This document shows positions 2,610 to 35,730 of a stretch of DNA of 35,913 nt, piece after piece (position 1 is the first letter of the stretch; each line of letters opens with the position of its first letter). A program made the position numbers and the translations under genes. Below the pieces are notes generated by a model that was given only the letters and a program-made list of their open reading frames with translations, was not told the origin of the DNA and did no database searches. This DNA is from Fragilaria crotonensis (Eukaryota > Bacillariophyta > Fragilariophyceae > Fragilariales > Fragilariaceae), in contig JAKSYS010000644.1 of the NCBI GenBank assembly GCA_022925895.1, forward strand, positions 1 through 35,913, read 5' to 3'.

Positions 2610-2719
2610 GTGGCTGCTATCTTATCCGAGGTAGTGCCCATCCGTGTGGGTCGAGTATTCCTTATCAAGGATGCTGCGGCAACACGTTAAACATTGAAAT
2701 TAAGTTTTTTTTTTTTTTT
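2610..2719 (+). mobile_element. 110-bp retroposed tail fragment with poly(T) 3' end
   Basis: A short insertion in opposite orientation to LINE-L. It is flanked by a direct repeat gacagactcgg (2599-2609 and 2720-2730), extendable through T's to about 16 bp. Its last bases are a run of 15 T's (2705-2719). Just before the tail it has CCGTGTGGGTCGAGT, a hairpin tcctt-atc-aagga (2659-2671) and CACGTTAAA. These match the ends of LINE-R and of the SINE-like copies at 14699 and 35730. Removing it plus one flanking repeat rejoins the LINE-L ORF2 frame, so LINE-L was open here when it inserted. It is a severely 5'-truncated copy of an element of that family. Confidence 0.82.
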
Positions 2720-8239: not shown

Positions 8240-11200
8240 TTATGCTTCAAACTCGATGCTTTCCTGTTTTTCATCCGAAGCTACTGATAGATATTCATTC
8301 TGATATTCACCTTTCACCCACTTGATCGTCCCGTTCGGGTCGCTTACAGGAACCATATGATGCTGCCATACCGTCTCTTTCATGGCCTTCTCTGCGATCA
8401 TCTTGAACGCATCTCCCGTCAAGGTCAGGATTTTATCACGTGCTTTAGCGCTCGGTATGGTTCCTTTTTCGACGAGAGTCTCGCAATGTGACAGAACGTC
8501 CTGCGTTGCGACGTCGACCAGGGCAAATAAGAAAGCCTTCAACATTAGTCCTTGATCATCAAATTCAAGACTCGGGATTGGGAACGGAAGGCCGTAGGCA
8601 CTGGCCATGTATTTGAGAACCTGAAGACAGACTATAAGCCATGGCGCAATCTCTACAATCCATTTTCTTGGCACCTGGATCTCGAAGGGTTCGTGGCCTG
8701 GTTTACCCGAATGAGCACAAACAAAGACGACCTTGTAGTTTTGCGTCATTTTCTTCTTGATCCAAGTCACGGGATTCTCCAGTTCCTTCTTCGTTATCGA
8801 GACAGGTGTCAGGCAAACGAGATTCGGGCACGGCATGCTTTGCTTCGCAGCGAGAAAGTGCAACGCGGCCAAGGACCGCTCTAATCCTTTTGCAAATCCC
8901 TGTAGCATCTGCAGCTGCTTCTCCAATGACTCAATGGTTGCGTCAACACCATTTTTTACGACGTGCAGCAATTCCGTGCCTTTGTCAACACCCACTCCGA
9001 CCCGATGCAACGTTTTTTCTAATCTTTCCAATCGGAATATGCAATCGTTATACCTCCTCTGTGTATCTCGATGTGATTCGAATTGGGTGAAGATTTCACG
9101 AGGTAGGAGCTTACGTAGAACATCATCATCTAATGGTTTGCTTGAGCACCCGTCGATCGGGCACAACGTATCGCACCTGCCATAAGGATAATGCGAACCT
9201 TTGTTCTGGATACAAGGCATGCAAAGTGCGTGAGGCTTGCTACCGCTACACCCTATATCGGCAGAGTAATGGTTGCATACGTCACAAAGGACGTCCCTTT
9301 CTCGGCCACGACCAGTACGCTTCGGCTCAAAGTCCAGTGTACCATCGTGTACCTGTTTCGCCGTGCAAATCTCATCCATGAGGTTCTCCGTACTCAACCT
9401 CTTGTCAGGAGAAGGGTCCATACACTGAATGGCAGTCTTGCAAACTAGTTGAAGAGACTTTGGATTCCAGATGATGGATCGATCTGCGTCGTCCTGGAGC
9501 AGTTTCCAACCATCTTTGATCTCTGTTTGCTCATTCTCGACGAACGTCTGGAAAACATGGACAAGCTCCTCTCGATTCCTAGGCTGGCCATTCAAGCGGC
9601 CCAAAACTAGCTCAGCCATGACGACGCCAATAGAATACACATCATATGCAGCAATAAAGCGACACCGAAACCCCTTCGCCTTCTTCATCAAATACTCTGG
9701 GCACATGTACCCAACGGTTCCAAATGCAGGGCCTTCAGATGAGCCAGATAGTATGATCGACCCTGGCTCTGGATTGAGGCTGGAGTCCTCGTCAGGTACA
9801 AATTTGGCCAGCCCACAATCAATGAGCCGGGCTGTGAAATCACCTGCTAGGCAAATGTTTGCACTCTTGATATCGCGATGAAATACTTTCCAACCTGCTT
9901 TACCAGTGTGCAAGAAGTGCACGGCTCTCGCCAATTCGAACATGATCATCAGTCGCTTATCTGCAGGAAGGCGGGATCTCGTGCCGTCGTCCTTGAAGAA
10001 GCCGTCGAGGGAGCCGTTGGCTGCATATTCATACACCAAAAACTGCTCTGTATGACTGACATTTAAGTTATAGCCGTACAAGACAATGATATTGGGATGA
10101 TGAAATCTTTTGAGTGTCTGGCAAAATTGTGCGTACTGTTAGAACTCGAGATAGCGTCACTGTTCTAGGTTTCTTTGTTCCAAACGAGGGGCAACACTCA
10201 ATACGGAGAAGAGAACGTACCGAAATTTCCATCTGGAAGGTTTTCCGAGCTTTGTCGACGGATTCCTGATCACTTTTATCAAGTTTTATCTTTTTGATAG
10301 CGACCAATTTTTGGAGATGTCTATCCTCGGCCAAAACAACATGGCCAAAGGCACCAGATCCAAGTTTACGTACGAAAGTGCACTGCTTGATAAACTCTAA
10401 AGAGAATTCAACGGGATCATGATCCATGGATGTGCTACTCATCACCAGTGAAAGCTTGGATCGGTCATCTGCTAACTTGGCGTGAGTTTCGGCATCGACA
10501 TCCACCTTGCTAGGTGGAAGCAACGCGCAGACGACTTCCCGAAGGCCATTTTGCCTCGCCCAGTCGATAGCAGTCTCCCCACTCTTATTCCTGAAATTCA
10601 CTTCCACATTGTCTCGTTTCAAGATTTCAAGGGCAACAACTGAAAGGCTCTTGTTGCACGCCCAGTAAAGCGCCGTCAGACCTTCACTATCATAGGCATT
10701 CACATCGACATCGTCTCGTTTCAAGATTTCAAGGGCGACGTCGGAAAGGCGATTGCCGCATGCCAAGTAAAGCGCTGAGTGACCTTCACTATCCTTGGCA
10801 TTTACGTCGACATTGTCTCGTTTCAAGATTTCAAGGGCGACAAATGAAAGGCTCTTGTTGCACGCCCAGTAAAGGGCTGACCGACCTTCACTATCCTTCG
10901 CATTCACATCGACATTGTCTCGTTTCAAGATTTCAAGGGCGACATCTGCATTGCCATTGATGCACGAGAAGTGAAGGGCTGTCCAACTGCCACTGTGCTT
11001 GGCATTCACATCAACAATTTCTTGCTTCAAGATTTCAAGGGCGACATCGGAAAGGCTCTTGTTGCATGCCCAGTAAAGGGCTGACTGACCTTCACTATCA
11101 TAGGAATTCACATCGATATTGTCTCGTTTCAAGATTTCAAGGGCTACATCGGAAAGGCTCTTGTTGCACGCCCAGTAAAGGGCTGACTGACCTTCACTAT

Positions 11201-12563
11201 CCTTGGCATTCACATCGACATTGTCTCGTTTCAAGATTTCAAGGGCGACATCTGCATGGCCATTGATGCACGCCCAGTGAAGGGCTGTCACACCAGTACT
11301 ATCCTTGGCATTCACATCGACATTGTCTCGTTTCAAGATTTCAAGGGCGACATCTGAAAGGCCTCTCCTGCATGCCCATTGGAGGGCTGTCACACCATCA
11401 CTATCAATGGTATTCACGTCGACATTGTCTAGTTTCAAGATTCCAAGGGCGACATCTGAAAGTCCATTGTCGCACGCGACGTGAAGGGCTGTCCAACCAT
11501 CACTGTGCTTGGCATTCACATCGACATTGTCTCGTTTCAAGATTTCAAGGGCGACATCTACATGGCCGTTGATGCATGCCCATTGGAGGGCTGTCACACC
11601 ACCACTATCAATGGTATTCACGTCGACAGTGTCTAGTTTCAAGATTCCAAGCGCGACATCTGAAAGTCTATTGTCGCACGCGAAGTGAAGGACTGTCCAA
11701 CCATCACTGTGCTTGGCATTCACATCGACATTGTCTCGTTTCAAGATTTCAAGGGCGACGTCGGAAAGGCGATTGCAGCATGCCAAGTAAAGCGCTGACT
11801 GACCTTTACTATCCTTGGCATTTACGTCGACATTGTCTCGTTTCAAGATTTCAAGGGCAACATATGAAAGGCTCTTGTTGCACGCCCAGTAAAGGGCTGA
11901 CCGATCTTCACTATCCTTGGCATTCACATCGACATTGTCTCGTTTCAAGATTTCAAGGGCGACATCTGCATGGCCATTGATGCACGCGAAGTGAAGGGCT
12001 GTCCAACCATCACTCTGCATGGCATTCACATCAACAATATCTCGCTTCAAGATTCCAAGGGCGACATCTGAAAGGCTGCTGATGCATGAACAGATAAGGG
12101 CTGTCACACCAGTACTATCCTTGGCATTCACATCAACATTGTCGCGTTGCAAGATTTCAAGGGCTACATCTGAAAGGCTGTTGAAGCACGCGAAGTGAAG
12201 GGCTGTCAAACCATCACTTTCCTTGGCATTCACGTCGACATTGTCTAGTTTCAAGATTTCAAGGGCAACATCTGAAAGGCTATTGTCGCACGCACAGATA
12301 AGGGCCGACCGACCTTCACTATCCTTGGCATTCACATCGACATTGTCTCGTTTCAAGATTTCAAGTGCGACATCAGAGAGACTTTTGTGGCACGCCCAGG
12401 TTAGGGCTGTGTTGCCAAATTCATCCTTGGCATTCACGTTTGCCCCCTTGTGCAAGAGGTCACGAACCTTCTTGAGATTACCATCCTTGGCGTTGTTGAT
12501 TAAATCATCGTCATTCGCTCTTGACGGCTTCTTCTTCTTCTTCTTCGAAGAGGGAAGCATCAT
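8240..12563 (-). CDS. Ankyrin-repeat TKL-like protein kinase with RING-like Cys cluster
   Basis: Two exons (12563-10221 and 10117-8240) give about 1406 aa. The start is the double ATG at 12563/12560; an open frame upstream to 12596 has no ATG. Residues about 1-60 are Lys-rich, then 19 ankyrin units. Kinase: LGSGAFG loop (734-740), VAIKK lysine (757), HRDIKSAN (861-868), GTVGYMCPEY, and AAYDVYSIG. The fold and these signatures resemble TKL/IRAK-type kinases. The DFG motif reads DCG (881-883) and APE reads CPE, but all catalytic residues are kept, so activity is plausible. Residues about 1059-1105 form a RING-like cluster (CDVC, then H-x2-C-x2-C, then C-x3-C). The C-terminal ~250 residues include a hydrophobic stretch around WLIVCLQVLKYM and are unrecognised. 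Likely a cytoplasmic signalling or immune-type receptor kinase (inference). Confidence 0.9.
10118..10220 (-). other. 103-bp spliceosomal intron in the kinase gene
   Basis: On the minus strand it starts GTACGTTCTC and ends TTTTGCCAG, a normal GT-AG intron in phase 0. Joining the exons gives QMEIS followed by TLKRFHHPNI, the expected alpha-C to beta-4 region of a kinase. Without splicing the frame drifts and the kinase is cut in two. No other intron is needed. Confidence 0.93.
10539..12374 (-). repeat. 18 tandem 102-bp units encoding 34-residue ankyrin repeats
   Basis: Eighteen units of exactly 102 bp, each coding for DVALEILKRDNVDVNAK-x-S-x-G-x-(S/T)-AL-x-x-AC-type repeats, with a diverged unit just before (12375-12480). 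Repeats are shifted from the usual ankyrin register but contain the G-x-(T)-AL-x-(W/H)-AC helix. Units are very similar in DNA. Higher-order copying is visible: units 7-8 resemble 9-10, and units 4-6 resemble 14-16. The spacing keeps the frame, so unit gain or loss leaves the kinase intact. Confidence 0.92.
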
Positions 12564-13473
12564 GCGTTCGAAGAGGGGTGGGTTGTGCACAAACAAGTAT
12601 TGGCTCCGCAGAAGTCGAATTGCGTCGTCAGGTGAGCGAAAGTAGACGAAAGTGTTGAGCGAAAAGGAGCTTGAAGATCAAGATACCAAAATTGTCCAAG
12701 ATCGGTTGCGTAACAGTAGCCATGGTCCGAAGCCAATCGTGACCGATGATACGAGAGAGTGAAAGATGGCTGGATACCAGTAGTGCCAAGAAAACGGCGA
12801 TCTTCGACGGTACACGTCGACGTCGATGCATGCTGCATGTGCGTATGTCAGCGCCCTGACGTGGCGCTTTAGTTTTAGCTTGGAACAGAGTGCATCACTC
12901 ATTCTTTCAGTAAAATTTGGTTTACGATCAATCAAGCCACTCACCGTAAGTTGTTTAATATGTACCGTACTGTGTACTGCTTACTGGGATGCGGTCATAG
13001 ATACGAACCGGACTCGGGAATCAGTCATCGATTGTATGCACGTTTATACATAGAACCACAATTCGTTTAAGACTGTTGTTATCGTTCTTATCTTGCTGTT
13101 GGTAAGTTAGTTGTTGTTAATCTCGATAGGATATAAACAGTTTATCAGACCCAATGAACCAGAAAGATTGGAGTGGTTGAAGACAGCGATTCGTTCGCTG
13201 CCATCTCCTTCGTGTGAGAAGAACGAGGAGATGCTGTGCTGTGGCATCAAATGAAGCGATTAAGGTTGGCCACCGTCATGGGGTCGCTTGGCCCAGCACA
13301 GAGCGTTGACTGGAGACATCTCCGTCTCCGCATTCGTATGTTGATGCCGGAGACTGATCATCTCTCGGTGCGACGTTGACTCCCATGGTCACAACGGACA
13401 TATTGCCCGTATGTCGCTTGGTATATACAGCACACGAGTGGTATTGACACCCTTCCCCTTGGATACAGGTACC
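12564..13473. other. Kinase upstream region and probable Copia-A 5' LTR/leader
   Basis: No gene seen. The kinase promoter (minus strand) must lie at the left side. To the right, gatataaacag (about 13130-13140) is a TATA-like box, and tggtattgacac (about 13451) could be a tRNA primer-binding site just ahead of the Copia-A gag ATG at 13474. If so, the Copia-A 5' LTR ends near 13446. I cannot prove this because the 3' LTR of Copia-A is outside the window. Confidence 0.35.
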
Positions 13474-14680: not shown

Positions 14681-14698
14681 GAGATACTGTGATCATCA
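14681..14698 (+). repeat. 18-bp TSD of SINE-like copy 1 (left; right copy 15548-15565)
   Basis: gagatactgtgatcatca occurs at 14681-14698 and 15548-15565, flanking the insert exactly. The uninterrupted site is seen in the 3' LTR near 32400, which confirms a duplication made by insertion. Confidence 0.95.
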
Positions 14699-15547
14699 AA
14701 AAAAAAAAAAAAAAAACCGAATATCTATTTTACGTGCTGCCGCTGTTCCGGACGAAGACGGAACTCGACTCACACGGATGACCGCTACCCTGGGGTACAG
14801 CAGAGGCCACCATAATTGTTTTCTGTTACTGCAGTACTGTCGTACTGAAATTGTGCCAAATAATGCTGCATGGAGTCGTCGTATCATAGGGAGGGTGACT
14901 GTAGTGCGGGAAAAACCTTGGATCATTGAACTTAGTTGCCGTAGGTTTAGTTGTCGCATTGTACGTCGGTAGCATGTAGAGCACCACCATATGGTGCGTA
15001 GCGGTATACTCGGAGGATCGGGTCACTCCAACTTTCGTTCGGAATTTGGTAGCGGTGTGTTCGGTCATTTGAAACGCCAAAGGGCGCGTAGCGGAAAGGT
15101 GTTGGGTCATGGAACTGGGTGGAGTCACCCCAATAGTCATATCGGATTTCATCACAGTACTTCGGTCAGCAGTAAAATAGGTCACGGTGCTGGTATGGAT
15201 ACCAGCAATCGGTCGGAGGTCCTTCGTCGCTGATGGTGTTGAATCAAGCAAAATTCGGGGGATAGACAGCGTAGAAACAATACCGGTTTCTACATGAGGA
15301 AAAAATCGATCACGTCGCACATCTGATGATACCTCAAACGCTGCAACCGCTCCATACGCGTTGATGCCAATTGCACCACAATCATTCTCAAGCATATTGG
15401 TGTTGATACTTGTAGACGGAGGTCGGGGAAGGCTGTAGCGCCATCCTTTGACTTGACTTTGTTGTGCTCTAAGTTGCGTAGAAAACGTACCAGAACTCAC
15501 GTAGAAACAACCACTTACTTGGCAAAAACTCCTCGGAAAAAATTCTA
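14699..15547 (-). mobile_element. SINE-like non-autonomous retroposon, copy 1 (5'-truncated)
   Basis: An 849-bp insertion in the 5' LTR of Copia-B. In its own sense (minus) it ends in a T run of about 18-19 (14698-14716 on plus). The sense 5' end (15547) lies inside the sequence of copy 2 at about 34893, so copy 1 is 5'-truncated, the signature of target-primed reverse transcription. The ~60 bases before the tail match LINE-R. It encodes no RT. A 245-codon open frame (15563-14826) exists, but differences from copy 2 are mostly amino-acid changing, so coding is doubtful. No tRNA-like A/B box is evident. Confidence 0.85.
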
Positions 15548-15933
15548 GAGATACTGTGATCATCAGTGTACCGTATCTATGTGGTACTGTCGTATTGCTA
15601 TACTGACCGGACTAGGCTAGTCTAAAAAGGAGTGGACCCTTCCACTCCGGTCACAACTTCATCATAGCTTAAACATTTACCCTCAATCGCATCTTTGCCG
15701 GTCTGGGATCGTAAAGGTGACGAGGGATCATTTGCTGCTTTGATACTACAGCACCAACACTTTCCAGCGAACTCGCAACACGTTCGGACACGCTTGTTCT
15801 TACTTGTTTCGACTTGTTTTGACGATCATTGTTGATCATCGTCACTTACGCGAGCCCTTCCTCCTGCCTTACGTTTAATCTGCTCCCTGGCGAGTACGTG
15901 TAAACGTAAGGCTCTGGAAAGTGTGGTCTGACA

Positions 15934-18300: not shown

Positions 18301-20031
18301 GCGGCGACTTATGATGACACCACATCCAGCTCGTTCGCGCACGCTGACAATGGGTCCATGGCTTGCACCACGCACGACGCAGCCCTCCTGTTTGCGTACC
18401 GCCCGCTGGCTCGCCCCAATGTTCGTCTCTTCGACGCTGGCCAGCACGCCCACACGCCGGTCGGTGTCGGTTTCCTCCGCATCCCTGTTGCTGATCGTGG
18501 AATTGCCGGAGGCCCTTCGTCCGTCTTCGTGCGGACGTATTACACTCCCACGATTCCTGGCATCATTGTCTCCCACTCCGCCATTGCAAAGCAGTTGGGT
18601 ACGAACGGGTACAACATGTCCAGTTCTGTCGATGCAGCCGGATTCATCCACTTCCCGCACCGCTTACGACGCTGCCAGGATGTGTACATCCGCCTTCAAC
18701 CCACCTCCCGTCGCGGAGGCCTGACCTTTACTGATGCGCTTCTGGTCCCCAGCACTGCCGAGCATCTGTCCCCATACCATCTCCCTCGGTGGTACGGCGT
18801 CTCTGTACCGAGCACTCCTCGTCCGCGTGCCCAACTGACCTCCTCGACGCCACCGATGGTATGACATGCCAGCCTTGTCACACTCCGCCTCGCGACCCGC
18901 CGGATTTTTGTTAGGCCCGTCATCTGCATCACCCTCTGATGACACAGGGCCTCTTCCAAATGGGTGCGGGGCGACTGCCGCGGATCACCAAATCTTGTCG
19001 CCACCGCAGCGCCCAGCGGCCAGGGTCCCACCCGATCCGTCTTTATTGTCGACGCAACTCCCTTCGGACGCAACTCCGAATCCATTTCCCTGTCACGAGT
19101 CACCTCTTGACGATGCCCCTGTTCTTCGGAATACCGTTGCCGACCCAGAGCGCCTCATCGTACGATCCCTTAATCGGTCAGCCCTACGAATGCTTTGGCA
19201 TCAGCGTCTAGGCCACCTCAACTTCCGGCGCCTCTCCGACATGCACCGTTTTGTAAAAGGTTTCCCCAAAATGTCGCTTCCGACCGAGCTTGACAGCTGT
19301 CCTATCTGTTTGGCAGCCAAAATGCGGAAGACTCCTGCTGGCACCACGACCACAATGAAAGCCACCACTTGCTATCAAGGTCTCTCCATTGACTTCGGCT
19401 TCATGCCGATCGGCATCGCAATCTTGTCGGTTTCAACGGCGAAACCTGCTATGTGCTCCTCACGGACCACTACAGCGGCCGCCTGTTTGGACGTGCTTTT
19501 GCTTCGAAGGCACCACCCGTCGACTGGTTGAACAGCTGGTTGGCAAACAACGCACCGCAATGCACGAACAAATATGTACGCATGGATGGCGGTGGCGAGT
19601 TGGGAAAATGCCGAGAGGTCCATCGGACTTTCACCAATTTTGGATATTCTGTTGAGCTAACCGGCCCGGATTCGTCGCATCAGAATGGTCCTGGGGAACG
19701 CCCTCACCAAACCATTGGTGACGCCATGCGCGCCATGCTCTCTGGTGCCAATCTCCAACCAAACTTCTGGCCTTATGCCTTTTATCACTACCTTCGCCTG
19801 TATAACTTTGTTCCACATGGCGACCGGCCCTCCAGTCCATTTGAGATGTGCGGTGCACCACTCCCGAACCTGTCGAGATTGCGAACATTCGGATGTCGCG
19901 TCTATGTTCGTCCCACCACGCCTCGTCTGGGTCGCGTTGTTCCTAATTCCAGAACGGGTGTGTTCTTAGGCTACTCTCGCACGTTAAAAGTAATGTACTA
20001 CTATGACTTGGAAAGTGCCATGGTTAAGACA
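18301..20031 (+). pseudogene. Copia-B protease and integrase
   Basis: Protease: the ADNGSM motif at 18343-18360 (D/N-G-S in place of the usual DSG/DTG) in a retropepsin-like context. A frameshift near 18850 leads to the integrase N-terminal zinc region LWHQRLGHLN...CPICLAAK (about 19191-19321; H-H-C-C), then LSIDFGFM (first catalytic Asp). Another frameshift near 19430 leads to LLTDHYSGRLFGRAF, then MDGGGE (second Asp) and NGPGERPHQT (Glu), with 36 residues between. This is the DDE integrase core. The frame ends MVKT at the LINE-R insertion and resumes at 29152. Confidence 0.9.
20015..20031 (+). repeat. 17-bp TSD of LINE-R (left; right copy 29135-29151)
   Basis: gtgccatggttaagaca at 20015-20031 and 29135-29151. 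Removing one copy plus the insert joins the Copia-B frame without a shift (position classes match), which confirms the TSD and dates LINE-R after Copia-B. Confidence 0.95.
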
Positions 20032-20040
20032 AAAAAAAAA

Positions 20041-20105
20041 CCAAATCTAATTTAACGTGCTATCCCAGTGTCCGTAGAATATAGACACGCGACCCACACG
20101 GTGAG
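20041..20105 (-). promoter_or_regulatory. LINE-R 3' recognition block with hairpin
   Basis: Sense order: CCGTGTGGGTCGCGT, hairpin GTGTC-11 nt-GACAC (20068-20088 on plus), then AGCACGTTAAAT and the T tail. The same block, with a different hairpin sequence in the same place, ends the SINE-like copies and the 2610-2719 fragment. This is where the RT would bind the RNA (inference from LINE/SINE tail sharing elsewhere). Confidence 0.7.
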
Positions 20106-20158
20106 ACCGAAGCCTGGTGTTAGACCTGACCTCACAACATTGGTTTTTTCCTGAATTC

Positions 20159-21478
20159 CTAGCGTTTCTCCCAATATGACTTCAACGATCTCATCCCTTT
20201 GGTTGCTAACTTAGTCGCCCGCTTTATACTTGTCCTTAAGATCGGTTCATTGATCTGAAACCATGTTTTGATATGCCACGTGGGCTTAACTTCATGGTCA
20301 CGGATATCAGCCATCAATAGTTCCCGAGCCGTCGGTTCATACTGATTCCGCAGCGCATACAACTCTCGCAACGTTTGCAAAGCGTTCCGCCTGTCCACCA
20401 GGGCACTTAACCTCGCGTCTGCACCATGTAAATCATTATTCCGACTTTCCCATAGTAAATACCAGTTGTCCCACAGTTTCTTGATAATGGCGACTTGCCA
20501 CTTGCCACCTTTGCAACTTTTCTTCGGGTTAGGCCGCGTTGCATAATGCGCATCCTGCAAATCCACCCATGCCCAACTGAATCGTCCGAGAAAGATGTGC
20601 TTCCAGCCGATCTGGTTTTGTTGTTGTATAAGGAGTTCGTACTCATCATCGTATATTGCGGTTTCCAGTTGATATGACGTGGGATCAGCACATTCCAACC
20701 AACCTCGGATTCCATCCAACAGTATCGCTCGTAGACCAGGACGAGTTTCCCATTTATCACAAGTCTTACCAAGAACCGTTATTAGAGTCGCTCTCCACGC
20801 CGCTCGACTCGAATGAGGACATCGCAAAATGTGTTCCCAATCCTCATCATGACACGGACATGCCGGGCAACCTCTTCGACTGGGATCGCGTCGATGCTGG
20901 AAGTGATTAGTAGGAAGAATACCCTGAACGAGCTTGATGAAGTGATCGCGGCGCTGAATCTGATTGTGTAGACATGTGGCATGGGCTTTCCAATTGATCC
21001 TGTCCGTTGTACTGGGCTTCCATCCATTGCGGGATTGTAGATGTGCCAGCAACGGTGCATACGTTGCTTGATATCGTATCGCCGATTTGTATTTTGTCGT
21101 GACGGTACCTTTTGGAGTAACCAAATGCACTCCAGCTCCCTCCACCAACAAAGCGTGGGGTCGTATCATCCCGAACTCGCGTTGGAAAGTATTTGCCATT
21201 GCGTCAGCGTCTACATTCAATTGAGCCATGAGATTCAATCGTTCATAAGCGACCTTGCGATCTTGGTGACCTCTGACGTGTTCTAAACTAAGCCCCGGCA
21301 TTTCGTGAAGCAACCGTCGAATATTAACAATAAGATCCGATTCCGGGCTCAGGGGATCGAGCGGAAGTTGCTCTGATCCGGCTCCGACTCCGTTGCCTCC
21401 GCCACAGTCAGCTGTCTTTTGATGCCCAAAACTGTCTCCACCAGACTCAAACTGTCCGTCGCAAGTGTCCCTTGCCAC
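20159..21478 (-). pseudogene. LINE-R ORF2, RNase H end and C-terminal zinc motif
   Basis: After a frameshift near 21360-21420 this frame carries the end of RNase H (HVRGHQDRKVAYE, then VDADAMA with the last catalytic Asp), then the zinc-type motif CPACPCHDEDWEHILRCPH typical of the C-termini of many LINE polyproteins, then a Trp-rich tail (LWESRNNDLHG) ending SYWEKR and TAG. A related tail is found in the fragment at 30654-31236. RNase H removes the RNA from the first-strand hybrid. Confidence 0.88.
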
Positions 21479-24465
21479 GGTTCATGTTGATAAGTAAATT
21501 CTGCAAGGCGTTTCAAAAAACACAACATCGCCAACAACCCATACGCTTCAGACCGGTATGAGTTTGGCGTGGCGCCCGGCGCAAGACCCATCCCTTCTGC
21601 TGTCCGTTCACCCTGGTCCGTACTCATCACCCATCCAAATGCCCCCATTTGCTTAAGCCATACAGACCCGTCGCTGACGCCTCGCACACCGTGTGACAAG
21701 GCAAGTCCAACCGTGAATGGATCCGTTGTCATAGCTGTGCGTACCAATAATTCGTATTCCCACGGCTCAAGGTCTTCAATATATTGCTCGAACGTAGCAA
21801 TCTGCGGTTTCCGGGGAGAGGTAAAGACAGTGCTCCGAGCAATCACCGTCCATTCTACCTCCTCCGTGACTTCACGAACCTCAACCGGAACCGCTTCATG
21901 AGGGATGTGCTGCCACTCACAATATCCACGAGTCTGTCGGTATCTGTACTCCCCTTCTTGTCTTGACAGGTCACAGATCATATAGTCTTGACCATCTCGA
22001 ATCCATAAGCGATTGCGTAATTGATATGCTGAATGGCTTTGTCGAAGCTTGTTGATTTTTGTAAGCCATGGACCTAAGGCCTGGTACAACTTCCCGGAAG
22101 CATCGCTCCACAGTAGATTCGCACGTTGCCACAATTTCCACTCCAGTGAAGACGGTCGTTTTTGATGTATCCACATGCCATGAGTACAACTGCTGTTGTG
22201 GGAGAACCTCCCTTCGTATTTCGCCTGATCTAGATAACAACCGGAAACGTCCGTGAGATCAGAGATGGTTTGCGCCTGAAGATAGAGACGACAATAATTG
22301 AGGCGCTTGATCTCCGATGCAGAAAACGTGTTAGCCTCCAAAATGGCATCCATAATATGACTGTCATGGCATCGTTGGAGTGTTGGAATGCCCGGAGTGT
22401 CGAGTTGAAGACATGATTGTATAGAATGTAAAAACTCCCGTAATGAAGCGAGCCACTTCGATTCCAAATGTGGAAGGTTTGTGTCAACCTTTTCCAGAAA
22501 CGAGTATGATGTGCCAATCTGATACTGAAACCAACCCACCGCTATACGTAGCAACTTTCCAGCCGTTGAGTTTAATCTCCAGTTCCGAAGGAATAATCCA
22601 ACCTGTCCAATGCCTTGTTCAACATAAAGGTGTCTGAAATTGGCGCCGCCTAACTCGAGCGGTCCGTAGAGGATCTCACGCTTGGTGTGACGATTGAAGC
22701 CACATCTGGGAACTATGATAGACATCGCTTTACGTTGTACCTGATCCAGTCGTTTCTTCGTGAGAGATGAGCACGCTAATGGATAACCAACACTCGGGAG
22801 ATAACACGCATAGTAAAACGTCCATGTTTCAAGTCTGGTAAGGGGACATGTCCACAGAAACGACGTAATCTCATCGCTCTTCGATCTTAATCGCCGGAAC
22901 TGTTCGTTTTGATTACCGACTGGTGCCTTATAATGACCCAGTGTCTTATGTGCCTCATAAGGTGACAACAAAGGAAGTTGATATGTTTCCTCTGTAGACC
23001 TGTCAATGACTCGTAACGCTGACTGGTGTGCAGATTGTTTCGGTGCCAAAAACGGTGCACCCTGCGTTGTGAACCACCAATGAAGTACTTGACACGAACA
23101 TTTGGATAATTCTAACGCCCCACCACTCAAATAAAGTAAATCGTTCCACAATTGTGCGTTCTTCTGTGTGCTCTCCAAGATACCTTGCAACGTTTCATCC
23201 GATCCTGGCGCCAGGAAATTATTAACTTGTCCATTACAATCATCAACGAACGCCACAAGACCTAAAGACACGGACGTGGATTCATCCGGCGAGTAATACA
23301 TTGCCGGCGTCGCCACCGTATCGTATGCATCCATGAGACAACTCGACAAAAAACACCAAATCGCTGGAGAATTAGCACTGCCTTGTCCAGTGCCATAAAT
23401 GGGTGCATCGACTGTATGAGAATAACCCGTAGGTGCAAGGCCCAACTCCGTACGAACCCGAAACTCCGCCTTCTCCAAGGTTAAAGCATTTGCCTGCGTC
23501 ACTGATAAAGGAACACCAAACTTCCGGCTCACAATCATTGCCTCGTTTTGAATAATCCGATCAAAGCATGCCCGTGCGTCATAATTGATAAGAGCAACAG
23601 ACCTCCGCGTCGCCCGTGAGATCTCACACTGCAATTCCTCAATAAAAACCGGATCGGTTGCATTACGTTGCGGTCTAGATCCATATTGTCCCTCATTCAA
23701 CGCCGCCAAAGCTTCTGCCTGGTACATTTGAATTCTCCACTTAATTCCCAAAGCAAGATTAAAATCCGCCTCATAAATGTGGATCACCCGCGTTCTATGC
23801 AACCGCACATTGTCCTCATCCTTGAAAAGGATTGTGTTGGCAATTGTTTGCCATCTCTTGTAGGAGTACCCTCGTTCGAGCGCGTAGTTTAGCAGAGCCA
23901 AGTGTAGATGTAGTAGATCAGTTTGCATCATGTCTAATTCTGCTCGATTGGCTCGGAACTCCGGAGTCAACTCCTCGTCTGGTAACTCTGAGGAGTAAGC
24001 ATGTCTCGCGATCAAAGCCTTGTAGTGACCCAAATGCAATCCTGACGGGGACGTTGTCGTGGATTCCGACCACACACGCAGTTTGCTCGTGAATTCTTCT
24101 AAAGATATTGTAGGGAACGAGGGAGTTGCGGCCATTTCGTGCACTTGTTCCAAGTGCTGGAGGAGGAGTCTCACATTTTTACTCACTATGTCATCCTCGT
24201 CCGGTTGATGTTGATAATTGCCTTCAAGAATTTGTGTACTCAATGGTTGATCTCCACAGAAGCCTAAATTGTCGAGGAGTGGTGGTACAGTGAAGGGAGT
24301 TCCTTTGGCCTGTCCAAAATGTTCTCGATTTCGTTCCTGTAGTAACCGAACAATCTCCGTGGGTACGTCGACTTGTCGCCACTCAGTGCACGTTTTGGGG
24401 TCATGATCTGGATGCAGCGGAATTTCAATACGCGTTACTCCCTGGCGTATTCGATTCTTCCTCAC
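21349..24465 (-). pseudogene. LINE-R ORF2, reverse transcriptase and start of RNase H
   Basis: A 1038-codon uninterrupted frame. RT motifs: HLGHYKALIARH, YDARACFDRI, GTGQGSANSPAIW, and the catalytic FVDDC (FVDD at 23239-23250). Thumb region LGHYKAPVGNQNEQF; FNRHTKREILYGP. RNase H starts with VSDGSVWLKQMGAFGW (first Asp), SYRSEAYGLL (Glu) and LATDSLSLVE (Asp). The listed first codon is GTG; the true start is the ORF2 ATG at 26147, with a one-base A-run slip near 24510 (AAAAA where AAAAAA would keep the frame). Confidence 0.92.
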
Positions 24466-26147
24466 ACCGCTGATCTTTCGAAATAGCTGTTTGATGTCCT
24501 CGGCTTTTTCATATGTCGTAACCTGGTGGCAGCTTCTTTATCAGCTTTTTTCCCCGACTTTTCGAGTGAGTCAATTTTCTGTTGACGTTCTTGATCACAG
24601 CGTTCATAACTCGCAGCAATGATTTCTTGAATAGTAGATTCTATTTCGCGAATTGCCGCGGTACAGTCACGCACTGTGCGAGGCAACGGCACTGGTGATG
24701 AGAGTTTGGCCATTTTGCCTGCCAGAATACTCGAGTGATCATACTTCGTTCGAAGTGCTGAACGATGTTTCTTTAAAATGTTGACCTGCTTTCTGGCTTC
24801 CGCTAGTTCAACAGACCATGCAGGTTCTCCAAATTTTTTCACTTTGGTTGCCGCAGTGAGACTTGCCGCCAGCACATCCTGGTCCAGTCGTTCTGCAAAG
24901 GCATGTCTGTTACCCGGTTTTGACAACTGTACACTTCGATCGAATGCATTATGATGCTGAAAGAGGATTCGATGCTTCTCCCGAATATAATCCGTCACCT
25001 GCTGTATGTTACTGGACGACAAGTCTCTCGCCTCCGATGATACCAATTGTTGAGTACTTGAACCAAAAAGCAAGTTCGTGTCAAAGTCAAGAAAGAACCC
25101 ACGATGATCGGACACCACATGCGCGTTAAACTCTTCGTATCCGGCTGAAACCAGGGCTTCGCTCACGGAGGAGCTTGCCAGAGTATAGTCCAACCGTTTC
25201 GTTCCTCTTGCGTACGTGGCCGGTGGATCAAGCGAATGTCTACATGCCATTAGATCAATTAGACCAAGTTGTCCCGCAATCTTACTCATGCCATCGGGAT
25301 CAGCACCAAAAGTTTCATTGAAATCTCCAACCACTAATAATAACATGCCAGCTGCAGCATATGTTTGGAGGGCTTTCAATAAATCGCGCCGAAACGCCGT
25401 TCGCGGATTGAGAACCGGGTCCTGTGCTAAGCGGAGTAAACTTGCTTGTTGCGCCGCCACTGTGATAGTACCTGGGCTCACTGTCTTATCCACTGGTTGA
25501 TACACCGAGAAGACCGCGATCTGCCGTGCTCGTTTGCCCGAGAATTCCTGAACTACCCACCGTCCCCACGGATCTCGATTTTGACGAACCACTCGACTCA
25601 TCAGACTATCGACCGTCAAGATCATAGTGCCCCCTGGTTTATAAGAGTTTTCCACCGTGATGGGTGTTGTTCCAAATGATATGCGATGTTTCTGCCAGTG
25701 TTGCTTTGCAGCTTCGAATAGTACGCTCCGAATCCTGAATTGTGTGGTGTCCAGGTTGTGTTCCTGTCCGCAAAATATATCCGCTTGAACTTCCTTGATT
25801 GACCGACAAATATCATCAAACGTTCCGCCTCGCCGATCAATAGAAATACCGTTTACATTAATTGAGTATAGTCTCGTGATATGCACCTGTTTGGGTCCTA
25901 GTGCATCTCCCCACGGCACATTAGAACGAACGTTTGAGGTTGTGATAGCCTCTGTCCTTGCGGACGAACTGTCCGCGTTTGCTGTGGAGAAGAGCTGTCG
26001 CCATTGTAGCTTTGCCCTTTCCAAGATGGTAAGGGAAGTAAGTGATGAGTGTTCCGGGGTCTGGTTTTCAGAACCTTGAGGTGCATCTTCCGGCGGTATC
26101 AAAATTTCCCCCGCAGATGCAAGCGATGTATGCAATCGTTGACTCAT
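24462..26147 (-). pseudogene. LINE-R ORF2, APE-type endonuclease
   Basis: Starts at ATG 26147, whose A is also the last base of the ORF1 TAA (TAATG). Motifs: SINVNGISIDRRGG, CGQEHNLDTTQ, AVFSVYQPVDK, LLVVGDFNETFG, RLDYTLASS, VVSDHRGFFLDF. All APE-family catalytic positions are present. A linker of about 200 residues follows. The frame is lost near 24520 through a single-base deletion in an A run. Confidence 0.92.
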
Positions 26148-29033
26148 TACGTGGCATCCCGCCCAGCCGGATCACTTGAGTTAGTGTATTGAGCGTCCGG
26201 GGGGCTTGGATTTTGCTGGGGAGTTGATAACGGCAGTTGAGAGTTTGTGTCCTCAGGTCGGTGGTCAGTAACTGAGTTATGGGCACCTGTGGTAGTATCT
26301 TCGACGTTGGGGAGTTCATCGTCAAATAGCTGCATTTGAACATCGTCCAAAGCCATTGGAGAAGTCTCTGCCCTTGAGTTCTGCTGCTCTTCATTCTTCC
26401 TTGTTTTCTTCTTTTCCGGAGACCTGCGATACCTAGAGGATCCATCACCAGAGGCTATGGATCGACTATCACCTGTGCCGGGAACAGTTGTACCATCGAC
26501 CTCTGGAATTTGCAGGGCCATGTGTGACAGTGGTATCTGAATCGACTGTTGGACTCCTGTGAACGGTAAGACGCCCGACGCAGCAGTGGTGAAGCTCGCT
26601 TGATGCATTAATGTGTGAAGCATAAGACGCATGCTTTCCATAGTTATGTTGAAGCTCGCAAACTGTGTTTGAAGTCCAGCCACAGTGTGCGTCATCTCCG
26701 TTATTGTTTCCATGGTTTCTCTCAGACTCTGTTCGTTTGCTGCCAACCTATCTGACGAATCTTGTGTAGCCTCCCGGTTCGATCGTAAGAGTTCTCTACA
26801 TTCCCTCATCTGATTTTCCAACTCTGTCATTCTTGTTGTCGTGGACGATCGTAACGTATTGGTCAAGGAATGAGTAGAAGCTGTATCTGCCCGCTCATCA
26901 ATCTCGTCCAACAAGGTAAGGCTGCTGATCTGCGACGATTTCCCTTTGGTTTGTGATTTCGGGTTGGGTTTTCCCTTTGGCGAAGCTGTGGTACCTGGCA
27001 TTCTTGCCGCCTCAATCGAATAGTCTTTATCTCCTGGTGGTCGTTTGACTAGAGACGGCCACTGCGGACTGTTATCTCTGTTGACCGTGTCTTGCGGCTT
27101 AACTGAACTTGTTTCTTTACCCGCAGACTCAACAACCGAAGGCGACTTAACCGAGGGCGGGGCTTTACTCCAGATGTCAACAGATGACAATTTTGCCATG
27201 AAGTCTAAGTTTGTTTGGACAGTGGACGTAATATGAATTACGTCTGGCAAATCAGGAATTCTCACGATATTTCTCTTCTCTGTGAGAAATCGGTCGCAAT
27301 CTTTCCTTATATTGCATCACCATTGACTTTATTTCTGTTGCGTAGGCTGCGGGGGCCATAACATAGGCAGTTTTGGAATTCTTAATACCATTGACCACGT
27401 CACATTGAGCATGAGTCTCTCCATCGACTCGCCGGAGTGATAACACCCAATCACGAGTCGACCTTTCGATTGTTGTTCCATCCGAAAAATATTCAATCCG
27501 TTTCAAGTCTAATGTTGTGACCAGTGGCGCCAAGGAGATTGGCCTTAAGGCTCGAATATACTTTTCGTGCATTTGGAAGTGATTATCAATTTGATCGGTT
27601 GACATGTTTGCAAAGGTATATCGAGGAAGAAAAACAGCTGTCTGGTGCCCGTTTAAAATCTTTGAGAGCCCTTGACAAAGCTCAGCCACCTGCTTTTCAC
27701 CACAGTACACCACTAAATGAGCAATCGACTTGTCTGTCGGAGTCTTCCGATGGAGGCGAATATCAAAATAAGGTAGTGTGTCCACCATTCGAGACCGGAG
27801 AAACTGTGTGTACTTGTGACGTAAGGTCATTGTCGGGTGTTTAAGCAATATGTAACCTGCCACAACAGGAATCCCCGCCTTGGGCGTGACATTAGACTCG
27901 TGAATCTTCAGATTGTTCAATTTCATTGCCGACTGGACATGAGTCGAGTTCCTCCACGAAATGGGATTCTCACTGAACGCAAAACGTACGGCGAATACAA
28001 TCAACTGCATTGTATGCACCTTCGTGATCTGGGGTTCCAAATACTCATCAAGATCAGAAACCGTCAACTCATGTACTCTTTTTGGATGGACTAGTTCAGT
28101 GCTGTCCCACATGTAGAAACATCCATCGGCTTCCATAAAAGTAATGCTCAACATTGCATGGATTTCCGAAAGGAGACGCTGTTTGTTGTCGGCCAGATCG
28201 TTGAACTCCTTCTGCACAAGTTTCCATTTAAACGAGATGCGATGAGCGCCGTCGTTGGTCATGAATTCATTACTTAGTGTAAAGGCTGATTGTTTAGCAT
28301 CCGACTCTGAGTTTGATTCGCCATCTACATCGAAAGTTGTATTTCTCAGTGACGTAGATGCCTCTTCTGGGTCCGATCTTGGAGAATCGCATTTGCTTCC
28401 TGTCATTGCCTCAGAGTCCGGAATACTAAATCTTGTCATTGTTTTACTGGGTAGTCCGACTTCCTCCTCTGTGATGGGACAGTTTGGCGTCGTCATTGGT
28501 GTCATCTTGACATTGCGTTTGTTTACACCCTTCACTGCCTTCCACAAACCTTTGTCCAGGTGCTTTGCGAAGTAAGCAATAATGTGCGGCCAATTGAAAC
28601 GCTCTGTGTCCATTTCCAAGGACTCTGGTGAATGCTCAAGCAGGAAAGGTTGAGAAACTTTGTTTGCCCACGCATATAGCTTAGGCGAGACGTTAAGTTC
28701 TCAATCCACATAAGACTTGTAATTAAACCATACAAGGCGGTGAAAACACAGTGGGTCAGAGTTACGCTGTCGCCAAATCGTATCGAACTCTTGTCCACTC
28801 ATCGCCTGGAATCCCAAGGACGTGAACCGATGCCAACTAGTCGGTGAAACTGAACGACGATAGCCATCATCATCAGCCTGCCTTTTTTCGAGCGCTGCTT
28901 TCAAATCACTATCGCGTTCGATCAAAACAGGGTTTGGAACGTAAGCGACTATAGTGAAACTGAACTCAGATGAGGTGATATCCAATGGGATATCGGAAGC
29001 GAAGAACGGCAACGGGGCCGTTCCTTCGGTCAT
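26147..29033 (-). pseudogene. LINE-R ORF1, RNA-binding-type protein
   Basis: Begins at ATG 29033 (ACCATGACC, MTEGTAPLPF). One frame runs to 27252 with a TGA at 28701-28703, then shifts near 27255 into the frame ending at 26147, about 960 aa in all. The N-terminal and middle part (blocks FVAYVPNP-like, YMWDSTELVHP, HPTMTLRHKYTQFLR, PYFDIRLHRKTPTDK) is a conserved-looking globular domain I do not recognise. The C-terminal part has a coiled coil (LENQMRECRELLRSNRE) and Pro/Ser-rich ends. No CCHC knuckle. Shared with LINE-L ORF1 over its end. Confidence 0.85.
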
Positions 29034-30478
29034 GGTGAACGGTGCGGAGATACGCAACAACTTCCTACTGTTTCTACGGATGTACGGTCAAAGGACAGAA
29101 CTCAATGTAAAAACTCGAAACTAGAAAATTGTGTGTGCCATGGTTAAGACAGCCACCCACGCCCGTTTTGACGAAGGTATGAATGATCTGACGGAACCGC
29201 CTCCCAACGCACGCCTCCTCCGACACCTGGCGAACGGCGACGCCATCAATCCCGACACTCTAGATGTTCCACCGCTCTCTTTGGAAGTTTCGGATGACCC
29301 CTTTGAACGCCTCGACGAGCACACGCAATCCATTGTCTGTGAGCACCCTACACTTGGTTTCGAGATTTCGGAGTGCCACATTCGCCGGCGCGGATATGTC
29401 TCTGGTATTGTTCCAAATACCTCTGCCGCGCGAATCCGCAATGTCCGCCGGCGATACATTGGCGCCTTCGTTGTGTCCGTAAACGGATCCAGCGTATTCA
29501 CTGGAGAGTCTGTCACCGACGCCCTCCGCACTGTTGTGGCAAGCGACTCTACTTCGTTCAGCATTGTATTCGCCCCCGACAGATACATACCTGTAAATGA
29601 GCGTCGACCTGCACAACCTCTCCATCTGGCCATCGATCAATTGAAGGTCATCCACGACATTCAACATGGTCCATCCTCCCTTGACCTGGACACCAACCAA
29701 TACATGCCCCTCGTCATCAGTTCCCTCAACACCACAACACACGGTACCGCTGCAGAACAAGAGCTTGGCAGTTTTACACGACGCAAACTACGCCGTCTAT
29801 CGAATTGGCCGGATTGGCAAGAGGCCGAGTTCAAACAATTAGATTCCATGGCGAAACAGCAAATGTATGGCTTGCCCGTGTTGCCTCCGCCCGACGCCAT
29901 CATCCTCCGACAACATTGGAACTACGCAATTAAAAGCGACGGTACCCGCAAAGCTCGCAACTGTTGTGACGGTTCCCCTCGTGCGGCCCCGCAACTGAAA
30001 CTAGCAAACACCTATTCGTCATGCATTGAGCAACCCTGCATGCGATTATTCTTTGCCCTGTGTGCACAGGAGGGATTCATCTGTTTGAAAGTCGACGCCA
30101 CCAACGCGTACGCAAACTCGCCTCCTCCGGAACAACCCACATTTGTTCGCATCGACGATCAGTACGCCGAATGGTACGAGGCTCGTTTTGGTTCCCCTAT
30201 CGACCGCTCCATGGTTCTGCCAGTTCAACATGCACTTCAAGGGCATCCTGAATCTGGCGCTTTATGGGAAGGTTTCGTTAACCGCGTGATCGCTCGCCAC
30301 GGCTTCTCCTCTACTACCCATGAGCGCAGCCTATACCACGGCGTGTACAAAGGGCAACGAATGTTGATCTGTCGTCAGGTTGACGACCTTGCCATTGGCT
30401 GTGCGAACTTGGATACTGTTCGGGAGCTTGTTGCCACCATCTGCAATGAAGACGGTATCGATCTCCGCGACGAAGGAA

Positions 30479-34774: not shown

Positions 34775-35730
34775 ATCAAGCAAATGCCACATACTGCACA
34801 CCATGCCAACGTACCAAGCATGGTGAGTCATGGACCCAAGTACGAGCCATCGAATAGCGCAAAGAAAGGGTCAATCGGAATTGCCTGGCTCTCCAGAATT
34901 TTTTCCGAGGAGTTTTTGCCAAGTAAGTGGTTGTTTCTACGTGAGTTCTGGTACGTTTTCTACGCAACTTAGAGCACAACAAAGTCAAGTCAAAGGATGG
35001 CGCTACAGCCTTCCCCCGACCTCTCGTCTACAAGTATCAACACCAATATGCTTGAGAATGATTGTGGTGCAATTGGCATCAACGCGTACGGAGCGGTTGC
35101 AGCGTTTGAGGTACCATCAGATGTGCGACGTGATCGATTTTTTCCTCATGTAGAAACCGGTATTGTTTCTACGCTGTCTATCCCCCAAATTTTGCTTGAT
35201 TCAACACCATCAGAGACGAAGGACCTCCGACCGATTGTTGGTATCCATACCAGCACCGTGACCTATTTTACTGCTGACCGAAGTACTGTGACGAAATCCG
35301 ATATGACTATTGGGGTGACTCCACCCAGTTCCATGACCCAACCCCTTCCGCTTGCGCCCTTTGGCGTTCCAAATGACCGAACACACCGCTACCAAATTCG
35401 AACGAAAGTTGGGTGACCCGATCCTCCGAGTATACCGCTACGCACCACATGGTGGTGCTCTACATGCTACCGACGTACACTGCGACTACTAAACCTACGG
35501 CAACTAAGTTCAATGATCCAAGGTTTTCCCGCACTACAGTCACCCTCCTATGATACAACGACTCCATGCAGCATTATTTGGCACAATTGCAGTACAACAG
35601 GCGTATTGCAGTAACACAAAACAATTATGGTGGCCTCTACTGTACCCCAGGGTAGCGGTCATCCGTGTGAGTCGAGTTCCGTCGTCATCCGGAACAGCGG
35701 CAGCACGTAAAATAGATATTCGGTTTTTTT
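34775..35730 (+). mobile_element. SINE-like non-autonomous retroposon, copy 2 (longest copy)
   Basis: 956 bp ending ATATTCGG and seven T's, then the TSD. Its first ~118 bp are absent from copy 1. Near the 5' end is the inverted repeat accatgc-11 nt-gcatggt (34800-34824). The 3' block holds the hairpin gttccg-tcgtcatc-cggaac (35676-35695) as in copy 1. An ATG-started frame 34997-35416 (MALQPSPDLSSTS) is open for about 139 codons. No RT, tRNA or 5S similarity was recognised. It depends on a LINE such as LINE-R for movement (inference). Confidence 0.85.

Follow-up and report, generated by a model that had tools for sequence, protein, structure and literature searches.

A conserved 3′ hairpin followed by an oligo(T) tail in a group of diatom LINEs and their short non-autonomous companions

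In a 35,913-nucleotide stretch of the genome of the diatom Fragilaria crotonensis (assembly GCA_022925895.1, contig JAKSYS010000644.1, positions 1 to 35,913; hereafter the window), we found a long interspersed nuclear element (LINE) of 9.1 kb whose coding strand ends in a conserved hairpin followed by a run of T. The same end is carried by other LINEs and by short non-autonomous elements of the host genome. We consider it very probable that a diverse clade of diatom LINEs of the apurinic/apyrimidinic endonuclease (APE) type, together with short riders, moves by target-primed reverse transcription for which this hairpin would be the anchor and a 3′-terminal oligo(U) tract of the RNA the template.

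The window LINE lies on the minus strand at 20032–29134, ends that an earlier note on the letters of the window had placed correctly to the base. It is full-length, its frames being broken in this copy, and its limits follow from a duplication of the target, GTGCCATGGTTAAGACA, on its left (20015–20031) and right (29135–29151) sides, from an empty site, and from a 5′ end, beginning ACACAATTTTC, that is common to other copies. The empty site is found in a copia copy on another contig, to which the joined flanks of the LINE align without gaps at 99.7% identity over 732 bp. Read in the sense of the LINE it is GGC|TGTCTTAACCATGGCAC|TTTC, so that the target offers one of the ten T. Since the empty site has a single T at the junction, the T tract was brought by the LINE. 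Both the sequence and the empty site thus confirm the earlier description of the 3′ end as a T run: the tail is T10 in coding sense, that is A10 on the plus strand (20031–20040; one T can be the target's), and it adjoins the conserved hairpin at 20040–20115 on the minus strand, which scores 82.6 bits with a covariance model (R1) whose alignment contains this very sequence. By the duplications, the run belongs to the 3′ and not to the 5′ end of the element.

The minus sense had been deduced from the order of open reading frame (ORF) 1, endonuclease, reverse transcriptase (RT) and RNase H, all on the minus strand here. The position of the endonuclease before the RT holds; RNase H is weakly supported, and ORF1 is assigned by position only. 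The ORF at 24462–26171 contains an APE-type endonuclease domain (Exo_endo_phos, E 2.4e-11, over the Pfam cut-off, as in four of five other copies). The ORF at 21349–24537 carries the RT with an FVDD motif and the start of an RNase H-like region; its RVT_1 match (E 6.7e-6, 26.4 bits) stays below the curated cut-off of 29.6, as do those of all five other copies. The remainder of the RNase H-like region and a C-terminal part are found in the ORF at 20159–21481, while the upstream, ORF1-like frames (26147–27316 and 27252–28700, together 26147–28700) had no Pfam match over its cut-off. The RNase H-like region likewise had no Pfam match. Over 12 rows it shows no change at E, D, H and D; a single row covers the first D, which is also present in the consensus. 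We take this pattern to be the RNase H motif. The best Foldseek matches of its predicted structure (predicted local distance difference test score 61.7) are RNase H domains, at a weak best E of 0.11. The endonuclease, the RT, duplications of variable length, 5′ truncation and the empty site identify the LINE as an APE-type retrotransposon without long terminal repeats. Searches of the Protein Data Bank aimed at placing the RT in a named clade gave nothing useful with a single sequence, and the profile search returned 0 matches.

Four insertions of the window had been claimed to share this 3′ end. Indeed, R1, which was built from 11 such ends with the T run excluded, matches at four places in the window (E up to 1), each followed by a T tract: 20040–20115 (minus strand, T10), 14717–14791 (minus, T19), 35649–35723 (plus, T7) and 2628–2704 (plus, T15). 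Three of these are among the 11 sequences of the model, and the one at 35649 is not. The last ~80 nucleotides (nt) before the T run are similar in the window LINE and in the insertions ending at 14698 and 2719. These two are a non-autonomous element of 850 bp (14698–15547, minus; T19, duplication GAGATACTGTGATCATC) and a 5′-truncated insertion of 110 bp nested in another LINE (2610–2719, plus; T15, duplication TTTTTGACAGACTCGG). The fourth is a non-autonomous element of 956 bp (34775–35730, plus; T7) that carries a transduced 5′ flank of ~121 nt (34775–34895).

Is the T run a common feature of these ends? We surveyed the host genome (62.1 Mb, a single species) with a pattern that describes the hairpin and leaves the tail free. 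It matched 93 times, its reversed control 0 times, and viral contigs gave 0 matches. Together with the window LINE and one locus accepted by a relaxed pattern (L009), 95 ends were read; a further locus lacking the pattern (L010) was dropped. The hairpin was followed by at least four T in 91 of the 95 ends, corresponding to 88 distinct flanks, over which the runs ranged from 4 to 19 with a median of 9 and reached at least six T in 82. In a comparison sample of 1520 windows of 33 nt, drawn at random from these loci, 42 contained at least six T and 8 at least six A. The T run after the hairpin is therefore beyond chance. Three extra R1 matches in the fetched loci, outside the 95, are also followed by T tracts (T7, T8 and T18 at L028, L029 and L080). 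This genome-wide count is the survey for which the earlier note had called, and the group-wide T tail lends support to its suggestion that the RNA would end in U, for which it had named uridylation, an oligo(U) template and slippage on a U tract as possible sources.

This survey selects its loci by the hairpin. Using the RT part of the ORF at 21349–24537 as a query, we obtained at least 94 genome matches, among them many that have long open frames; of 566 first-look candidates, 91 were scored. For a pairing of RT and hairpin, 62 of the 94 were taken. The exact hairpin pattern lies downstream of the RT in 21 of the 62, at a distance of 2.72–2.85 kb in 18, and is absent downstream in the other 41. 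Twenty of these 41 loci, mostly with long open frames, were fetched, and in 16 of them R1 matches at the expected place, with at least six T next to it in 15 and an A run there in none. No simple A tail, of the kind found in L1-type LINEs, was thus present in the 95 ends or in these 16; a few copies have A6–9 after a T tract.

The hairpin itself bears the marks of a folded RNA. Over 48 distinct sequences, 95.0% of the cells of its two helices form standard pairs, and 70 cells have both sides changed, against 25.6 ± 5.1 in shuffled alignments, none of which reached that number in 500, and between 7 and 15 in controls with one strand displaced by one to three columns. For covariation, the score was 0.306 versus 0.159 ± 0.012 in the shuffles. 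All five pairs of the inner helix show compensatory change; the outer helix is almost invariant, and its innermost pair (columns 14–39) fails in 14 of the 48 sequences. The alignment was made with MAFFT from sequence only, and the structure leans towards these sequences, because it was drawn with the RNAalifold result and the alignment in view. On this covariation, we regard the 3′ hairpin as an RNA structure.

The target sites offer a view of the priming step. With a threshold of 11 exact bases and a shuffle p of 0.01 or less, duplications were identified in 38 distinct copies; the first 20 loci (L001–L020), covered for ~150–235 bp upstream of the hairpin, could hardly be scored. One copy in a tandem (L025) had been set aside. 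It lies 0.8 kb from L026 on the same contig (C53), and the two share a doubled tail (T8-AA-T8/9) and a common 3′ flank, which looks like a tandem duplication. In the 35 copies that remain once three with a one-base offset are left out, the duplication always starts with T (background 0.264); the base before this T is C or T in 34 of them, and the one further out is A in 24. The same T stands in the duplications of three LINEs that were read at both ends, namely those on C515 (14 bp), C75 (16 bp) and C197 (16 bp, with 24 kb between the ends); for two others tried, one gave none and the other 7 bp only. The first T implies that the nicked strand, which serves as primer, ends in A and would be able to pair with U. 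In the mechanism that we propose, the endonuclease would nick the bottom strand at about 5′-A|RTT-3′ (AAY|T on the top strand), the A-ended primer would pair with U of the template, the RT, held by the hairpin as an anchor, would start within the U tract, and slippage on this tract would give the runs of 4–19 T.

In line with copying from this end, ten copies of 69 to 215 bp are constant at the T and hairpin end and variable at the opposite one, although truncated copies without the hairpin could not show up, because all ten were picked by it. A hairpin-independent count gave 24 genome matches for the last 300 bp of the window LINE and 14 for its first 300 bp; such an excess of 3′ over 5′ ends is usual. 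At the 5′ end, one copy (L100 on C411) has two starts resembling that of the LINE (ACACAATTTTCTA...) within ~100 bp.

When clustered by the sequence upstream of the hairpin, the copies fall into several families of LINEs and, apart from these, several families of short elements. Short copies that begin at a common 5′ end measure 816 to 1266 bp, and many full-length ones start with a GAATTTT-like sequence. With tblastn, most short copies gave no match to the proteins of the window LINE; three (L029, L060 and L071) have matches in their flanks, one of which, at L060, crosses the 3′ junction. LINEs and non-autonomous elements thus share a conserved 3′ RNA structure, as do stringent-type LINEs and their partners, and the likeness of short elements and LINE at both ends is the pattern of non-autonomous elements depending on a LINE, a dependence that we infer here from these likenesses. 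Coding by the short elements is doubtful, since the longest M-started ORF varies from 63 to 244 amino acids among 16 similar copies. In the window (14826–15611, minus) and its family, an ORF of up to 244 amino acids starts MALQPSPDLSS in several copies and is broken in others; other short families have different open frames. One short-element insertion site occurs on two contigs with near-equal duplications (L060 and L088), as an allele or a segmental copy.

A parent and its daughter could be recognized among these elements. The element at 34775–35730 reaches ~121 nt further upstream than the 5′ start typical of its family, and its first 127 nt are identical, among the matches found, only to the 5′ flank of L039 (G000 C125:67230–67356), of which the 13 nt adjoining L039 are L039's own duplication; a third place matches part of this stretch at 81%. 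An alignment of parent and daughter over 961 columns contains 4 mismatches and 14 gap positions. Since the daughter carries the upstream flank of its parent, its RNA began outside the element, probably by read-through. The parent ends in T17 and the daughter in T7, two of which may be the target's, and no 3′ flank of the parent is present in the daughter; its copying would thus still have begun in the T tract. The tract lengths of both may have changed since.

Several observations weigh against the proposed mechanism or blunt the evidence for it. The U tail is deduced from DNA. Four of the 95 ends have no run of at least four T: in one (L089) the run is interrupted, and three with one common flank (L032, L045 and L051) have TTT followed by A6–9. 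Two further ends read T9A6 (L038) and T12A9 (L061). An A stretch may therefore sometimes come after the U tract; a search for the duplication of L038 in 9.5 kb upstream found none. As for their origin, the A6 to A9 right after these tracts could be a poly(A) tail behind the U tract or an A-rich target. Among the RT-chosen LINEs, one (L119) has the hairpin and no T run, and four of the 20 (L112, L115, L121 and L125) have other sequence at the place where the hairpin is expected, including A7 in the unplaced sequence of L112; they are perhaps interrupted or truncated copies. Two of the five pair measures of the hairpin were not above the shuffles, namely the number of pairs changed on both sides (6; 85 of 500 shuffles) and that of further pair types (20; 75 of 500). 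Related rows were counted as independent in the statistics, and the difference in tail length between families, on which we draw below, is driven mostly by one family of four with runs of 4 to 7.

Where does the U tract come from? We lean towards a tract that would be copied from the donor's own T tract and prefer this to uridylation of the RNA. A comparison of six families of at least four members (86 rows, nine left out) revealed a modest difference in tail length (Kruskal p 0.0097, permutation p 0.0064), which leans to a donor-encoded tract. A less likely, tentative alternative, which fits the data nearly as well, is that the RNA is cleaved or ends just past the hairpin and that a host terminal uridylyltransferase adds a U tail for priming. 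The fixed junction followed by pure T of variable length, 7–19 within the short family of 830 bp, would be expected of such an enzyme, as would the change from T17 in the parent to T7 in the daughter, and uridylation of LINE RNA is known for human L1, where, according to an excerpt of that study, it lowers retrotransposition (PMC11014359). However, tail length differs modestly between families with a common hairpin, and slippage on a donor-encoded tract accounts for these data with no extra enzyme. Accordingly tentative is the further idea that host uridylation was co-opted as a priming tail, with the endonuclease and the RT having co-adapted to an A-ended primer and an oligo(U) start; we rate it as possible at best.

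It is improbable that the U tail results from transcription by RNA polymerase III with termination in the T tract. The enzyme does stop in T tracts near the 3′ ends of short interspersed nuclear elements (SINEs), as stated in the part of the source at hand (PMC5744160). Yet runs of T5–T6 lie near the 5′ ends of the LINE and of many short elements (T3–T4 only in some short families), the coding RNA is 9 kb long, and the ~121 nt of parental flank in the daughter suggest transcription from outside. ARAGORN, moreover, found no tRNA in the window, its two short elements included, in a search that did not extend to 5S, 7SL or box A/B. A T run supplied by T-rich targets that the endonuclease prefers would agree with the T at the first duplication base in 35 of 35 copies and with two sites starting with four and five T, respectively, but one or two T start the 5′ duplication copy in the other 33 while tails reach 4–19, and the empty site of the window LINE, with one T against ten after insertion, contradicts this reading, which we reject. 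Equally rejected is a wrongly assigned sense, in which the T run, which does look like a poly(A) tail of the other strand, would be a 5′ end or an antisense tail: domain order and the distance from RT to hairpin in 18 of 21 paired loci rule it out, and the ten hairpin-picked short copies as well as the 24 versus 14 matches of the two 300-bp ends speak against it.

Apart from these elements, the window contains, at 8240–12677 (minus), two overlapping frames that encode ankyrin repeats and a protein kinase domain, with a 102-bp repeat in ~18 copies. Profile searches of the host genome matched silicic acid transporters 19 times (18 over the cut-off) and light-harvesting proteins 61 times, as befits a diatom host; the elicitin family, looked for with an oomycete in mind, had 0 matches, a negative that by itself carries no weight. 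Silicic acid transporter domains are repeated within one open frame in two places, three on C97 (29749–33762) and two on C771 (21664–24330).

How do these elements compare with known systems? No account of oligo(T)-ended LINEs as a group came up in our literature search, although a bracketed spelling of 'poly(T)' could have escaped it. Ambal, a LINE class present at a relatively high proportion in the diatom Pleurosigma according to an excerpt of one report (PMC12803021), resembles the present group as a diatom LINE class, a likeness of description. Mammalian LINE-1 shares the APE-type endonuclease, the RT, target-site duplications, 5′ truncation and the pairing of the primer with the RNA tail, but its tail and primer are A and T, the mirror image of U and A in the diatom. 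In human cells, as far as the available part of the study goes, uridylation by TUT4/7 lowers L1 retrotransposition (PMC11014359), so that a LINE in need of a U tail would represent the opposite case. Stringent-type LINEs such as UnaL2 of the L2 clade and SART1, as portrayed in portions of a 2013 review (PMC3747384), likewise combine a structured 3′ end common with short partners, a short 3′ repeat and likely slippage. Their tails, however, are TGTAA or A where that of the diatom is T, and we liken the two by description and not by hairpin sequence.

The closest likeness in the tail itself is to plant SINEs with 3′ T tracts, p-SINE, Au-like SINEs and ZmSINE2. In its accessible sections, the same review describes poly(T) ends for p-SINEs and Au-like SINEs, proposes for them partner LINEs that recognize poly(U) and calls them unidentified, and lists maize ZmSINE2 with (T)n and LINE1-1_ZM; the part shown of its table of plant LINE tails has no (T)n class (PMC3747384). 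These SINEs are from seed plants, whereas the diatom presents LINEs and short elements together, the short ones being 0.8–1.3 kb long. Thus a LINE group of the kind that was proposed for plants would now be at hand in a diatom, whose genome also harbours short partners. The compact hairpin and the readable target site open two questions to experiment: by what change an RT goes over from an A to a U priming tail, and whether uridylation may be a help to a retrotransposon and not a hindrance.

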